A stretch of 48,475 nt of DNA from assembly GCA_030680175.1 (NCBI GenBank), contig JAUXWO010000140.1, positions 1 to 48,475 on the forward strand, written 5' to 3'. Source of the stretch: Vicinamibacterales bacterium. GTDB lineage: Bacteria > Acidobacteriota > Vicinamibacteria > Vicinamibacterales > UBA2999. Below are positions 3,746-37,270 of this stretch, one piece after another. A program made the translations under genes and the position numbers. The notes beneath the pieces are model-generated. The model did no database searches. It was given only the letters and a program-made list of their open reading frames with translations, and was not told where the DNA came from. Each line of letters opens with the position of its first letter. Within the stretch, counting starts at the first letter, position 1.

Positions 3746-3766
3746 CCAACGCCTCAAGACCCAGCG

Positions 3767-4043
3767 GCACCCAGGCACTCCGGCACCCCGGCACCTCGAG
3801 CCCCCCGTGCACTGCGGGCACCCCGGGCACCCCGGGCACCTCGGGCACCCCGGGCACCCCGGGCACCTCGGGCACCCCGGGCACCCCGGGCACCTCGGGC
3901 CCCCCGGGCACTGCGGGCACCCCGGGCACTGCGGGCACCTCGGGCACCTCGGGCCCCCCGGGCACTGCGGGCACCCCGGGCACTGCGGGCACCTCGGGCA
4001 CCTCGGGCACCTCGGGCACCTCGGGCACCCCGGGCACCTGTGC
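3767..4043. repeat. GGGCACCNN 9-mer tandem array A
   Basis: About 25 tandem 9-base units run from 3807 to 4043 with consensus GGGCAC followed by CCC, CTC, TGC or (as GGGCCCCCC) a variant. Between 3767 and 3800 the same core repeats with an 8-base period. Higher-order structure is clear: a CTC-CCC-CCC triplet of units recurs (27 bp), and a six-unit block at 3897-3950 is repeated exactly at 3951-4004 (54 bp). The array fills the gap between the 3' end of the SLC13 gene and the promoter of the M20 gene. The unit is the same family, in reverse orientation, as the array after dnaK (11043). Both strands are open, giving Gly-Thr-Pro or Pro-Gly-Val low-complexity translations that I regard as spurious. 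Confidence 0.95.
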
Positions 4044-11042: not shown

Positions 11043-11259
11043 GGGTGCCCAGGGTGCCCAGGGTGCCCAGGGTGCCCAGGGTGCCCAAAGTGCCCAGGGT
11101 GCCCAGGGTGCCCAAGGTGCCCGAAGTGCCCAAGGTGCCCGGGGTGCCCAAAGTGCCCGGGGTGCCCAAGGTGCCCCGGGGTGCCCGAAGTGCCCCGGGG
11201 GCCCAAAGTGCCCCGGGGTGCCCGAAGTGCCCCGGGGGCCCAAAGTGCCCAAGTGCCCC
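11043..11259. repeat. GGGTGCCCA 9-mer tandem array B (reverse orientation of array A family)
   Basis: About 24 tandem 9-base units, consensus (G/A)(A/G)GTGCCC(A/G/C), begin at the first base after the dnaK stop codon. The first five units are identical GGGTGCCCA; further along they diverge to AAGTGCCCG, AGGTGCCCC and GGGGGCCCA. Near the end a two-part block (GGGGTGCCCG, AAGTGCCCC, GGGGGCCCA, AAGTGCCCC) recurs at 11178-11214 and 11215-11250. The reverse complement of the unit is GGGCACCCT or GGGCACTTC, so this is the same family as array A. Uniform units beside dnaK and decayed ones distally suggest directional growth. Confidence 0.95.
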
Positions 11260-19200: not shown

Positions 19201-19418
19201 CGTCGATGGCGCTGATCCTCGGCGTGCTGCCGCTGGCGCTCGCCTCCGGCGCCGGCGCCGGCGCCCGCAACTCGGTCGGCACGGCCGTGGCCGGTGGCAT
19301 GTTCGCCTCCATGGTGCTGTCGGTCATCTTCATTCCGGTGCTCTATGTCATCATCCGTTCGCTCGCGCCCGGTGGCGGCCGCTACGCGGTGCAGGCAGAG
19401 GAGGCCGCGCATGGGTAG
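16287..19418 (+). CDS. HAE1-family RND efflux transporter (AcrB/MexB type)
   Basis: A 1043-residue proton-driven drug/hydrophobe exporter of the inner membrane. It starts MFTDIFIRRPILSTVCSLVI as in AcrB. The helix-4 proton relay is intact (LATGIVVDDAIVVIENIERH, with the Asp-Asp pair), followed by PVAFFPGTTGRLYQQFSLTIA, and the helix-10 Lys is in GLAAKNSILIVEFAEQL. Two large periplasmic loops (about residues 30-335 and 560-870) give the substrate-binding domains. GGGAG lies upstream of the ATG. The 3' end overlaps the TolC-like gene by 8 bp. Substrate range cannot be inferred. Confidence 0.97.
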   Translation: MFTDIFIRRPILSTVCSLVIIIAGAVAIPTLPIARYPELTPPSVTVSAFYTGANAQAVESAVTTPLEQVINGVEGMTYITSSSTNSGVSNITVFFDIDRDPDLAAVDVQNRVNQALGRMPADVRSNGISVTKNSAGFLMGLGFFSKDGRYDSLFISNYLDVYVRDAVKRVPGVGNVIIFGERKFAMRLWLDPGRLAARGLTAGDVVSALREQNVQVAAGSLGDAPMSSEQMYQLSVRAMGRLSEVAQFEDVVVKAGADGALVRLSDIGRVELGAETYSSNLRFLGLEASGMGIQLLPSANALEVDAGVRAALVALEPTFPPGLEYAIAFDNVSVVRESIAEVLKTLAEAIGLVILVMFLFLQNWRSTIIPTITIPVSLIGTFAFIKLFDFSINTLTLFGIVLATGIVVDDAIVVIENIERHITQYGKKAQRAAIDAMREVFSAVIVIGIVLIAVFVPVAFFPGTTGRLYQQFSLTIAFAVLLSVFNAVTLTPALAALLLDKESHEHRGLFKIFNRAVDAGTDFYVTAVRWALNQRLAMLVLFMVGLAATWWVFSAVPSAFVPDEDEGYFITIVQAPAGASLEYTTNIAKQAEQVLFAQPEIAGVFSVMGFSFAGAAPNNGLIFTRLTDFDQRRGPDQSLAAVLNRIRGPLFGIPGAIIVPFAPPAIQGLSAFGGFQFQVLDQTGGDITQLADVTGQLVGAGNQSGRVAGLFSSFTARDPQLVVEIDRDRARALGLPLREVTDALQVFLGSQYVNDFDFNNRAYRVYAQADQQFRAGPADLGQLYARTQGGEMVALDSVVRLSETTAPQVISHFNLFRSAEITGSGAPGVSSGEALQAMQELAGASLPPGFSYAWAGLSLEEIQSGSQAAYIFALSVLLVYLVLAAQYESWVLPFIILLGVPLAVLGALSAQLVRGFANDVFCQVGLVMLIGLAAKNSILIVEFAEQLRGKGMSIVEAAVESSRIRLRPILMTSMALILGVLPLALASGAGAGARNSVGTAVAGGMFASMVLSVIFIPVLYVIIRSLAPGGGRYAVQAEEAAHG

Positions 19419-20679
19419 CCTCCGACACACCCTCGGCGTGGCCGTGGCGGTCGTGGGGCTGGCGACGGCCACCGCGGTGGCGCAACCGGTGGCGCCGGTG
19501 ACGCTCGACGAGGCCGTGCGCCTCGCCGTCGAGCGCCATCCGTCCGCGCGCCAGGCTGCGACGACCATCCTGCGCGCCGAAGCCCTGCTCCAGCAGGCGC
19601 GGACGGTGGCCTGGCCCACCGTCACCGGCGGGATCGCGACAACGGTGCTCGACGGCGAGCGCGGGTTCGACGAGTTCGTCACGCAACCCCGGACGCAGAC
19701 GCTCTTCAGCGCCTCGGTCGCATACCCGGTGCTCGCGGCGTCGCGCTGGGCCGCGCGGACGCAGGCCGGGGATCAGGTACGCGTGGCGCAGTACGGCGCC
19801 GAGGAGGTGCGGCGGCAGATCGCCGTCGCCACGGCCGGGGCCTACCTCGCCGTGATCGCGCAGAAGCGCCAGGTCGACGTGAACACACGCGCCCGGGAGA
19901 CCGCGCAGGCGCACCTCGACTACGCGCGCGCCAGGCTCGAGGGTGGCGTGGGCAGCAAGCTCAACGAACTGCGCGCGGCGCAGGAGGTGGCGACGAGCGA
20001 CGTGCTGCTCGAGTCGGCGCGGCTCGGCGTCCGGCGCGCGCAGGAAGCGCTCGGCGTGCTGACGGCCACCGATGCGCCGGTCGATGCGGCAGGCGAACCG
20101 GCCTTCGAGGTGCCCGCCGCGCCGGTGGGCGAGGACTGGCTGCGCGGCCGGACCGATATCCGGCTGTTCACCGCGCAGCGCGAGGCGGCCGAGCGCGTGT
20201 TCCGCGACAGCCGCAAGGACTGGATCCCGACCGGGACCGTCTCGTTCGACCCGCAGTACGTCACGCCGGCCGGGCTCTTCCAGCCGTCGCGGACGTGGCG
20301 AGGCGTGCTCCAGTTCTCGGTGCCGCTCTTCGATGGCGGGCAGCGGCGCGCCGTCGCGCGGCAGCGCGAGGTGGCGGTCGAGGCCGCGGACCTGACGCTC
20401 GCCGAGGTGGAACTCCGGGCGCGCGCGGACCTGCGCACCGCCCGTGCGGCCGTCGAGAGCACCGAGCGCGCGGTGGCGAGCGCGCGCCTCGCCGCCCAGC
20501 ATGCCGCCGACGTCCTGCGCATCACCGATGTCGCGTTCCGTGCGGGGGCGACCACCAACATCGAGGTGATCGACGCCCAGCGCCGCGCACGCGATGCCGA
20601 CACCGCCGCCGCCCAGGCCGAGGACCGCCTGCGCCAGGCCCGGCTCGACCTGCTCGTCGCGCTCGGACGGTTCCCGTAG
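19411..20679 (+). CDS. TolC-family outer-membrane efflux protein
   Basis: A 422-residue outer-membrane channel. A signal peptide (MGSLRHTLGVAVAVVGLATATAVAQ) precedes VTLDEAVRLAVERHPSARQAATTI, the usual start of the OEP domain. Two long heptad-rich helical repeats follow, with the second beginning RLFTAQREAAERVFRDSRKDW and ending TTNIEVIDAQRRARDADTAAAQAEDRLRQARLDLLVALG. Its ATG lies inside the RND gene, overlapping 8 bp, so expression is coupled. With the adaptor and pump it completes a tripartite export system. The TAG is followed after 11 bases by the YCGGACCYG repeats. Confidence 0.94.
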   Translation: MGSLRHTLGVAVAVVGLATATAVAQPVAPVTLDEAVRLAVERHPSARQAATTILRAEALLQQARTVAWPTVTGGIATTVLDGERGFDEFVTQPRTQTLFSASVAYPVLAASRWAARTQAGDQVRVAQYGAEEVRRQIAVATAGAYLAVIAQKRQVDVNTRARETAQAHLDYARARLEGGVGSKLNELRAAQEVATSDVLLESARLGVRRAQEALGVLTATDAPVDAAGEPAFEVPAAPVGEDWLRGRTDIRLFTAQREAAERVFRDSRKDWIPTGTVSFDPQYVTPAGLFQPSRTWRGVLQFSVPLFDGGQRRAVARQREVAVEAADLTLAEVELRARADLRTARAAVESTERAVASARLAAQHAADVLRITDVAFRAGATTNIEVIDAQRRARDADTAAAQAEDRLRQARLDLLVALGRFP

Positions 20680-20690
20680 CGCCGGCCCCA

Positions 20691-20754
20691 TCGGACCTGC
20701 CGGACCTGCCGGACCTGTCCGGACCTGCCGGACCCGTCGGACCTGTCGGACCCG
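20691..20754. repeat. YCGGACCYG 9-mer array, left flank of fold-back element
   Basis: Seven 9-base units (TCGGACCTG, CCGGACCTG twice, a one-base insertion, CCGGACCTG, CCGGACCCG, TCGGACCTG, TCGGACCCG) start 11 bases after the TolC stop. The same unit in the same orientation forms the right flank at 21021. Confidence 0.9.
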
Positions 20755-20763
20755 TCAGCCCAC

Positions 20764-21008
20764 CTTCTGTGGGCTTCTGGAACTGCCGTCCTTCCGGCCG
20801 GCGGGAGCTCGCGCTCGCAACCTGCGCCTCCGTCCACTCGGGTTTCGTACTGACGCGTATCGCGCCGCGCCTACCCGGCCACGACTGACGCTGGGCCTAC
20901 GGCGCCGGCGCTCGAAACCCTCGCTCCCTCCGGTGCAGGTTGCATGCTGCCGCCCATCGCGCGACTCCAACGCCGGCCTCCAGGACGACAGTTCCAGCAC
21001 CACAGAAG
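20764..21008. repeat. 245-bp imperfect fold-back element
   Basis: The two halves are imperfect reverse complements over roughly 90-100 bases each. Matching blocks from the outside inwards are CTTCTGTGG / CCACAGAAG (ends 20764 and 21008), TGGAACTGCCGTCC against the complement of GGACGACAGTTCCA, GGCCGGCG against CGCCGGCC, GCAACCTGCGCC against GGTGCAGGTTGC, and GGGTTTCG against CGAAACCC. A transcript would fold into one long interrupted hairpin. It has no coding sense and no transposase. Confidence 0.8.
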
Positions 21009-21020
21009 CGGCGCCGCCGG

Positions 21021-21120
21021 CGGACCTGTCCGGACCTGCCGGACCTGCCGGACCTGCCGGACCTGCCGGACCCGTCGGACCTGCCGGACCCGTCGGACCT
21101 GACTGACCTGTCGGACCCGA
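21021..21120. repeat. YCGGACCYG 9-mer array, right flank of fold-back element
   Basis: About eleven 9-base units, four of them identical CCGGACCTG, then alternating CCGGACCCG and TCGGACCTG, decaying at the end to ACTGACCTG and TCGGACCCG. The array stops 7 bases before a candidate -10 (TACACT) and 20 bases before the next start codon. Confidence 0.9.
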
Positions 21121-21126
21121 CTGATC

Positions 21127-21132
21127 TACACT
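21127..21132 (+). promoter_or_regulatory. Candidate -10 element (TACACT), leaderless context
   Basis: TACACT ends 7 bases before the ATG at 21140 and directly adjoins the repeat array. No Shine-Dalgarno sequence is present. Confidence 0.4.
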
Positions 21133-21139
21133 GACGTTC

Positions 21140-21871
21140 ATGCGCTCCGGCCGTCGGCCGATTGTCGTGTGGGGGGTGACGCTGCTGGCCGTGACCCTGG
21201 TGGCCACGCGGTCGCTCGATCGCGATCAGCCGGTGCCCCCGCTCGCGCGCAGCGCCTTCACCCTCTACATCGTCGATCAAGGCGGCGCGCGTCAGCCCGT
21301 CGCGCACTACGACGGCCTCGCGTGGGCGCCGCTCTGCGAACAGGGGCTGGGGCCCCCGACGCCGGTCCAGTATCTCGGGCCGGTGCTCGCGGTCGAAGGG
21401 TCGCGTGGCTCTCCTCTTTATCCCGTCCGCCTGCTGTCGGGCGAGCCGCGCCGCTGGCAGCGCGCGCGCGACGCCGTGCAGGCCCTGACCGACGGATCGG
21501 TGGACGTGCCGGGCCGTATCCGCGAAGCCGCCGTCTACGTGCCGGTCGGCACGACCTCCGATGTCGTGTTCGTCGACCTCGTGATGCGCTCCGCCGAGCC
21601 GCAGTGGTGGGGGGTGGCCGCATCGGGGTGGGTCCACACCGATGGCGACCGCGTGTGGGTGCTGGCGCCGCGCGTCGCGCCCTTCGCCACCTACGAGGAC
21701 TTCATCGCCACGCCCCGGCTGCACCCGCTCGGCGTCGCCGACGTCGGCCACCCCGGTGAGCGCGTCTGGGTGATGCAGAACCGCGCCCCCGAACTGAGCG
21801 CCATCGAACTCGTGCGCGTCTCCGCCCGCACCGCTGAAACGTCCGTCAGCGTGGCCCACGGAGGATGCTAG
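21140..21871 (+). CDS. Hypothetical membrane-anchored or exported protein
   Basis: A 243-residue protein I do not recognise. Residues 8-24 (VVWGVTLLAVTLVATRS) are a single hydrophobic segment after Arg residues, so it is anchored in or exported through the inner membrane; the rest is soluble and beta-rich by appearance (FTLYIVDQGGARQPVAHYD, WWGVAASGWVHTDGDRVWVL). A Cys is the last residue. It lies between two repeat regions and is co-directional with the lipoprotein gene at 22110. Their shared repeat-rich surroundings suggest a lineage-specific pair, but nothing in the sequence gives a function. Confidence 0.7.
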   Translation: MRSGRRPIVVWGVTLLAVTLVATRSLDRDQPVPPLARSAFTLYIVDQGGARQPVAHYDGLAWAPLCEQGLGPPTPVQYLGPVLAVEGSRGSPLYPVRLLSGEPRRWQRARDAVQALTDGSVDVPGRIREAAVYVPVGTTSDVVFVDLVMRSAEPQWWGVAASGWVHTDGDRVWVLAPRVAPFATYEDFIATPRLHPLGVADVGHPGERVWVMQNRAPELSAIELVRVSARTAETSVSVAHGGC

Positions 21872-21909
21872 GCGGGGATCGGGGATCGGGGACCGGCTCC
21901 GCGAACTGC

Positions 21910-21990
21910 GTCCGCCTTCGCGGCCGGAGGCCGCTTCGGCGGGACCCCGCCGAAGCTCGCAGGCCCTCCCGGGCGAGCGGAGGCGGGAAC
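21910..21990. repeat. 81-bp cloverleaf-like element, copy 1
   Basis: The ends CCGCCTTCGC and GCGGAGGCGG can pair (one G-T wobble) as a closing stem. Inside are three hairpins: GCGGCC-GGA-GGCCGC, CTTCGGCGGG with CCCGCCGAAG (nearly perfect, 2-4 base loop), and GCTCGC with GCGAGC enclosing GGG/CCC. Copy 2 lies 105 bp downstream with four differences in 81 bases; one of them restores full pairing of the closing stem. The first 30 or so bases match the inner part of the palindrome at 13056. Confidence 0.85.
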
Positions 21991-22014
21991 CGCGAACCGC
22001 GAATAGCGAATAGC

Positions 22015-22095
22015 GTCCGCCTTCGCGGCCGGAGGCCGCTTCGGCGGGACCCCGCCGAAGCTCGCGGGCCTTCCCAGGCGAGCGAAGGCGGGAAC
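22015..22095. repeat. 81-bp cloverleaf-like element, copy 2
   Basis: Same layout as copy 1, with a perfect 10-bp closing stem CCGCCTTCGC / GCGAAGGCGG. It ends 14 bases before the start codon of the lipoprotein gene, so any transcript of that gene could carry the structure in its leader. Confidence 0.85.
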
Positions 22096-22109
22096 AGCGA
22101 ATAGCGAGA

Positions 22110-29185: not shown

Positions 29186-29299
29186 TAGATTGCAGATTGC
29201 AGATTGCAGATTGCAGATTGAGCCGAAAGCCGAAAGCCGAAAGCCGAGAGCCGAGAGCCGAGAGCCGAGAGCCGATCGCTGATCGCCGATCGCCGAGAG
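29186..29299. repeat. C..A..G heptamer array, copy 3
   Basis: Five ATTG-type units (TAGATTG then four CAGATTG, 29186-29220) start 5 bases after the preceding stop. After a 2-base phase shift, eleven units follow: three CCGAAAG, four CCGAGAG, CCGATCG, CTGATCG, CCGATCG, CCGAGAG (29223-29299). The second block uses the same words as the array at 11264. It ends 11 bases before the AAGGAG of the next gene. Confidence 0.95.
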
Positions 29300-29321
29300 C
29301 CACCGTTCTGAAGGAGCCCCG

Positions 29322-37162: not shown

Positions 37163-37270
37163 GCGAACAGCGAATTGCGAACAGCGAACAGCGAACAGCG
37201 AACAGCTGCGAATAGCGAACAGCGAATTGCGAATTGCGAACAGCGAACAGCGAATAGCGAACAGCGAATG
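37163..37270. repeat. C..A..G heptamer array, copy 4, containing the next start codon
   Basis: Fifteen 7-base units GCGAACA, GCGAATT or GCGAATA, with one 3-base insertion (GCT at 37205-37207), fill the gap between two M16 genes. The last unit is GCGAATG, and its ATG is the start codon at 37268. In phase C..A..G the units read CGAACAG, CGAATTG and CGAATAG. One reading frame is open through the whole array, but the protein before the ATG would be low complexity. Confidence 0.97.

Follow-up and report, generated by a model that had tools for sequence, protein, structure and literature searches.

Several families of short, intergenic, multi-copy repeats are known from bacteria, among them ERIC/IRU, NEMIS/Correia, RUP and YPAL. 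These MITE-like repeats give rise to stable transcripts, which are described as forming long stem-loops through pairing of their 5′ and 3′ ends (PMC2229807), and most of them have short terminal inverted repeats, several also having target-site duplications and TA termini (Table 1 of the same source). The REP/BIME/REPIN sequences offer TnpA-REP (RAYT) a strand-specific folded substrate, of which the enzyme reads unpaired bases and bulges (PMC8266576), and in Porphyromonas gingivalis the BrickBuilt MITE carries minisatellite repeats inside the element, between a leader and a tail (PMC4596501).

The fold-back element described here resembles the ERIC/NEMIS group in being short, intergenic and multi-copy, and its predicted folds likewise form a long stem-loop; it differs in that its ends are the least conserved part, whereas two families share its inner core, in which covariation is seen. 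The ends of IS-type MITEs and the terminal repeats read by a DDE transposase are conserved, whereas the ends of this element vary and its outer arms differ between loci, and the mark of an IS-derived MITE, conserved terminal inverted repeats in common with an autonomous IS, was not found. BrickBuilt is alike in combining a mobile-type element with a minisatellite, but the arrays considered here lie outside the element and are independent of it. Like the REP/BIME/REPIN sequences, the element has a strand-specific fold with conserved unpaired bases, but in place of a short palindrome it measures about 260 bp; its copy number is low, no tag tetranucleotide was found, and it is not tied to a Y1_Tnp gene, only one weak 10-base motif match being present at three Y1_Tnp loci. 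Candidate structured noncoding RNAs from comparative genomics reportedly show covarying helices around conserved unpaired motifs, and in this they are alike; the element differs from them in having several dispersed copies per genome and no gene association. No description of the element was found in the literature searched, which was mostly open access (including PMC2229807, PMC4596501, PMC8266576 and PMC4666352).

The window is a stretch of 48,475 nucleotides from a Vicinamibacterales bacterium, in which the element lies between two protein-coding genes on the plus strand. The upstream ORF (19294–20679, with an in-frame ATG at 19411) encodes a TolC-like outer membrane efflux protein, as the sequence-only reading had proposed, since the in-frame piece 19447–20676 matches Pfam OEP at 6.3e-43. 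The downstream gene, taken from the ORF list (21140–21871, 243 aa), matched no Pfam family at E 0.001, and its protein had no relatives in a search of genome contigs. Within the gap, two CGGACCYGN arrays were delimited by TRF on the plus strand, one on the left (20692–20752, 6.7 copies, score 92) and one on the right (21021–21117, 10.7 copies, score 136), both consisting of the 9-mer CGGACCTGC in the same orientation, which agrees with the earlier description of the locus. That description had also stated that no frame in the gap encodes a transposase, and judging from the ORF list alone none was seen, the ORFs listed there overlapping the repeats.

Between the two arrays lies an imperfect palindrome of about 263 bp (20755–21017; the limits, set by homology, are approximate), slightly longer than the 245 bp first given for this inverted repeat. 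Predicted folds and covariation place the selected fold on the minus strand. Either strand is predicted to fold as RNA far better than shuffled sequence, the plus strand (20752–21022) having a minimum free energy of −147.4 kcal/mol (z −7.65) and the minus strand (20755–21020) one of −162.6 (z −6.78), with none of 200 shuffles as good in either case; the minus strand folds strongly as DNA too (z −6.07). The fold is a single long rod, paired over almost its full length (83 and 86 consensus pairs). Its outer arms on the minus strand, 20770–20803 and 20971–21004, pair with each other as an inverted repeat of 79% complementarity (I1, helix 1), and the inner conserved core, on which the covariance models R1 and R2 are based, spans 20816–20944 on the same strand. 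According to the alignment A3 and its fold, two conserved unpaired bulge motifs are present on the minus strand, the first (GATGGGCGGCAGCA) at 20945–20958 and the second (GATACGCGTCAGTA in the window, GATGGGCGTCAGTA or close to it in the other copies of this genome) at 20848–20861. The inner core shows two similar unpaired bulges, together with purine-rich internal loops and a CCGUAGGC/GCCGrGUAGG loop.

When the core was searched for in its own genome (a 4.98-Mb assembly of 143 contigs), it proved to be multi-copy, with at least six full copies and one chimeric remnant; the counts from genome searches are lower bounds, 40 of 68 first-look candidates having been scored in this one. The full copies are that of the window, C25 (90% identity to the window copy) and C71, C137, C13 and C65 (82–83%). 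At a seventh place, on C11 (L011), both ends are of the C71 type and the middle is lost, a second repeat, element B, standing there instead. On C22, two outer ends are directly joined as a collapsed palindrome, which looks as if it had arisen by an internal deletion at a short shared sequence. The copies are intergenic, lying in co-directional, divergent and convergent gaps (as defined by a purpose-made gene caller) beside unrelated genes, and the element is, as a MITE would be, short, multi-copy, non-coding and intergenic. Being multi-copy at unrelated sites, with no match to the DNA search in any other of 162 genomes, the core is not the unique sequence, conserved with its flanking genes, that would have spoken against the mobile element envisaged in the sequence-only reading.

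No target-site duplication was evident by eye in the flanks of these copies, those of the window copy being repeats that would mask one, and neither an excision product nor an autonomous relative was found. With up to three mismatches, a first end pattern matched 14 places in the genome, namely ten element ends, two ends of the C22 remnant and two other sites (control, 5), while all three matches of a second end pattern were element ends (control, 1). An autonomous partner detectable by these patterns was thus rejected as a candidate, none being present among the own-genome matches. Phage and plasmid collections gave no DNA match to the element, and viral contigs gave no match to an element pattern that does match all six full copies of the genome.

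We then considered whether the 9-mer arrays belong to the element. The array-core-array arrangement had been read as one unit, a non-autonomous mobile element inserted into, or capturing, a tandem array; the mobile part of this reading agrees with the multiple copies at unrelated intergenic sites, but the unit does not hold, since the arrays form a separate family and the core is absent from all 20 further YCGGACCYG-like array loci, some of which lie inside coding sequence. Nor do the other copies share the flanking 9-mers, YCGGACCYG arrays being found beside the window copy and missing from the other five of the six full copies. C13 lies between GGTGCC-type arrays, one side of C71 adjoins a 9-mer array, and C25, C137 and C65 have no adjoining array (TRF, by the same rule as in the sample of gaps). 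Arrays of 7–9-mers are present in 41 of the 169 intergenic gaps (50 bp or longer) of a 400-kb sample of the genome, so that an array neighbourhood is close to what is ordinary for its intergenic DNA. Three of the six full copies touch a 9-mer array, compared with 14 of the 169 sampled gaps (binomial 0.009, for a class chosen after the data were seen); with any 7–9-mer array (41 of 169 gaps), the same comparison gives 0.16. Hence, the array is the setting of the window copy and not part of the element. Two further ideas about the arrays found no support: that the two halves are mutual copies through a shared 10-bp unit, CGGACCTGTC, as this unit is also present in five of the 20 other array loci (some 10-bp variant in eight of them), and that arrays are oriented with the upstream gene, which looks true in the window and failed by eye in the sample.

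Similar degenerate 7-/9-mer arrays occupy many gaps, in the window (3766–4038, 11044–11251, 29187–29301 and 37163–37268) as elsewhere (L053:7337–7984, L053:18511–18801 and L055:19495–19720); they often start a few bases past a called gene end, partly as an artefact of the gene caller, and are sometimes present as inverted pairs. The 9-mer CGGACCTGC also occurs within an apparent collagen-like (Gly-Pro-X) coding sequence (L007:1501–1640), and both of its strands encode Gly-Pro-X-type codons. At 21901–22101 of the window, two tandem multi-hairpin copies of about 105 bp have GCGAAYA heptamers around and between them, a plan like that of array-core-array.

The six full copies were aligned by MAFFT on sequence only (A3), the chimera L011 being left out of A2, A3 and later alignments. 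In the minus-strand structure, 12 of 86 pairs have changed on both sides and 96.7% of cells remain paired, and none of 500 shuffles reached the covariation score; when the structure was slid by one to three columns, there were at most 6 pairs, 8 cells and 45% paired, against the true 12, 21 and 96.7%. Most of the both-side changes lie in the outer helix (helix 1, 10 of 24 pairs), and the inner core is almost invariant among these copies. Changes on one side only gave G-U at 14 pairs and A-C at one in the minus strand (two-sided binomial 0.001, the copies not being independent), and the ratio was reversed in the structure derived from the plus strand, with G-U at one and A-C at 13 (0.002, with the same dependence between copies), which means that the wobble bias is not due to the strand used for prediction. 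The number of further pair types was unexceptional, being matched by 30 of 500 shuffles. Part of the G-U excess could stem from strand-biased deamination; C>T singletons of the minus strand fall at six paired and no unpaired positions, which, with such small numbers, argues weakly against plain deamination. In summary, the element shows the compensatory changes and the one-strand tolerance of G-U that mark a conserved structured RNA, a signal that is weaker in the outer arms of the distant relatives considered below.

By DNA search at E 1e-6, the core was found in one of 162 genomes of the order, its own. Among the 43 genomes of its family, matches longer than 43–50 bases were likewise confined to its own genome; six matches of 43–50 bases in six other genomes of the family (E 1e-4 to 1e-3) lie, as judged by eye, in apparent coding sequence and were left out, five of them being in a similar gene, which we take to be of a proton-channel type. 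R1, a covariance model that covers 130 inner positions and was made from the six own copies only, matched in five of 161 genomes, the own genome and four others, all four belonging to another family of the order (f12). Hence, a covariance model finds dispersed elements that are beyond the reach of DNA search, which reached the own genome only. The six f12 copies scored 45–71 bits, compared with 20.5 bits for the best background match (400 kb of own sequence) and 29–38 bits for the complement strand of the own copies; the second copy on G108 C326 scored 62.1 bits in the genome search and 26.7 in a local rerun with other bounds. In these f12 matches the unpaired motifs are kept and the helices change in step.

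The refined model R2 matched in eight of 193 genomes of the class, and in seven after G040 was dropped, its match (G040:C113, E 1e-5) not having been reproduced in place and giving E 0.084 nearby. The resulting 17 copies in seven genomes comprise the six own copies and 11 distant ones, in G108 (four), G107 and G109 (two each) and G110, G112 and G116 (one each), so that copy number is low throughout, at least six in the own genome and one to four in the others. Five of the distant copies had been built into R2, one more was found by R1 alone and five were newly found with R2. In the model-fitted alignment of all 17 copies, 29 of 44 pairs have changed on both sides (133 cells; none of 500 shuffles), with 26 G-U, 3 A-C and 46 other mismatched cells. 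Since the alignments A6 and A7 were fitted to the structure, their counts lean towards it (complement-strand matches of the own copies were excluded); A3 and A8 were not so fitted. A8, a structure-blind alignment of six of the 11 f12 copies that were selected as more alike, gives a long rod in which the core helices recur and 25 of 64 pairs have changed on both sides. Its inner pairs have 7 G-U against 2 A-C cells, and its outer-arm columns, where the arms are poorly alignable, 14 against 10, so that the evidence for a strand signal in the arms comes from the own copies. In 15 of the 17 copies, folding is better on the predicted strand than on its complement; in the other two it is slightly worse. 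Rfam 15 gave no match to the window at the gathering threshold, and two for 20680–21130 up to E 5, both far under the gathering scores; nine distant loci gave one tRNA only. Sequence comparison thus indicates a constant inner core with covarying helices and conserved unpaired motifs, shared across two families. The sequence-only reading overlooked this main point of the locus, namely that the core is structured, with covariation specific to one strand, and has relatives in a second family.

Each of the 11 distant copies continues beyond the limits of the model in stretches that are complementary to one another. By eye, these arms share little sequence between loci, except in the near duplicates of G108 C326 (a and b) and of G109 and G110. 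No constant protein-gene neighbour of the distant copies was seen, and no array of period 7–9 starts within 500 bp of them at the threshold used. One copy of G108 lies between a fis-like gene and groES (names taken from the translations), and at this place in G110, a member of the same genus, the aligned flanks are 22 bp apart, core and arms both being absent. Compared with that of G110, the slot in G108 has about 880 bp more, of which the element is only a part, so that G110 does not offer a clean empty site; the difference supports turnover of the element and does not fix its ends. Arms that were already present as a palindromic target were rejected on account of the 22-bp slot without arms, with the reservation that G108 does not show a clean insertion. 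In G109, a third genome of this genus, the fis-groES gap (L141, G109:C62, 1128–1457) contains two inverted 8-mer arrays of the GGAATCGG type, which could form a giant hairpin. Downstream of an apparent rpoD, two species of the genus hold the rod element (L132, G109:C380, 2773–4292; L133, G110:C5, 3852–4247), in opposite orientation and displaced by about 1.2 kb; in one of the two, a piece of an arm (53 bp) is left close to the gene.

The comparison shows an element that is multi-copy and intergenic, has no constant gene partner that we could see, keeps a strand-specific structure, has homologues in another family of the order and fills, in one species, a slot from which it is absent in another species of the same genus. 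The explanation that we hold with moderate confidence is a non-autonomous dispersed element, about 260 bp long, whose active form is a folded single strand. The strand-specific fold and the conserved unpaired motifs imply that the molecule is recognised either as RNA or as single-stranded DNA, and RNA seems the more likely of the two on this analysis, since long rods that tolerate G-U are typical of transcripts. The minus strand of the window would be copied out as a rod of about 250 nt, with an inner core conserved in sequence and an outer stem that needs only to pair. Dispersal with no linked gene suggests mobilisation in trans, and a protein, or an RNP, may read the folded strand through its unpaired motifs and copy or move the element, the outer stem serving as structure alone; transcription, enzyme and mobility are all inferred here. 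As for the window copy, either it would have inserted into a 9-mer array that was already there, or the array would have grown around it; the array itself would have no role.

Part of this evidence would also suit a multi-copy family of small-RNA genes, whose transcript has a cellular job and which was spread by ordinary duplication and by recombination between intergenic repeats. The conservation of core sequence and structure across two families, the compensatory changes and the minus-strand wobble would all be expected of such a family, and functional RNAs often have a constant core within a closing stem that varies. We nevertheless regard it as rather unlikely, since the own copies share nothing outside the rod, with no common promoter or terminator apparent from the alignment, the distribution is patchy (the own genome only among 43 of its family, and seven of 193 of the class by the model), and no constant neighbours were seen.

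It is improbable that the folded strand is instead single-stranded DNA acted upon by a transposase of the HUH (Y1) type or by a similar recombinase, as in REP/TnpA-REP, IS200/IS605 and integron attC. The minus strand folds well as DNA, as given above, the wobble asymmetry is also expected from a strand-specific fold of single-stranded DNA, TnpA-REP is an example of an enzyme that reads such hairpins on one strand (PMC8266576), and the genome has three Y1_Tnp genes; but a search around these for three motifs (end, core and bulge) gave one 10-base end match with one mismatch, a weak test as the arms vary, no conserved tetranucleotide is evident by eye beside the stem, and the element is several times the length of REPs, which measure 20–40 bp (PMC3733652). 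Of the three Y1_Tnp loci (L109, L110 and L111), the first has its gene flanked on both sides by palindromes containing AAGATCTGACCCC, and the other two have GGGGTC-type sequences near theirs; these palindromes and sequences may be the own target repeats of the Y1_Tnp genes. A plain palindromic repeat (MITE), in which intrastrand template switching (quasi-palindrome correction) keeps the arms complementary with no selection on an RNA, would account for arms that, by eye, match each other better within one copy than they match those of other copies, for the collapsed palindrome of two outer ends on C22 and for the little strand bias of the f12 outer arms, but is very improbable, as correction would give G-U no preference over A-C on one strand, which the own copies show, and would not preserve particular unpaired motifs and internal loops from one family to another.

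We suggest, only tentatively, that the element might represent mobile nucleic acids of a new class. Its structured core, specific to one strand, would stay constant while the self-complementary arms around it change freely; it would be recognised by its shape and not by end sequence, would possibly be copied through RNA, and would have spread over at least two bacterial families with no linked gene. Palindromic repeats of bacteria usually take their definition from their ends, whereas here the end sequence is disposable and it is the middle whose sequence and fold are conserved. The conservation of one strand across two families makes the reader of that folded strand a testable question.

Element B, the repeat found within the rod-element remnant (L011, 1590–1700), is a palindromic repeat of 111 bp that begins and ends with CTAG and has at least 49 matches in the genome, its loci including L069, L070, L073 and L084 (G000:C22, C139) and others. 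Tandem copies lie 107 bp apart and share a CTAG, as if element B inserts at this sequence.
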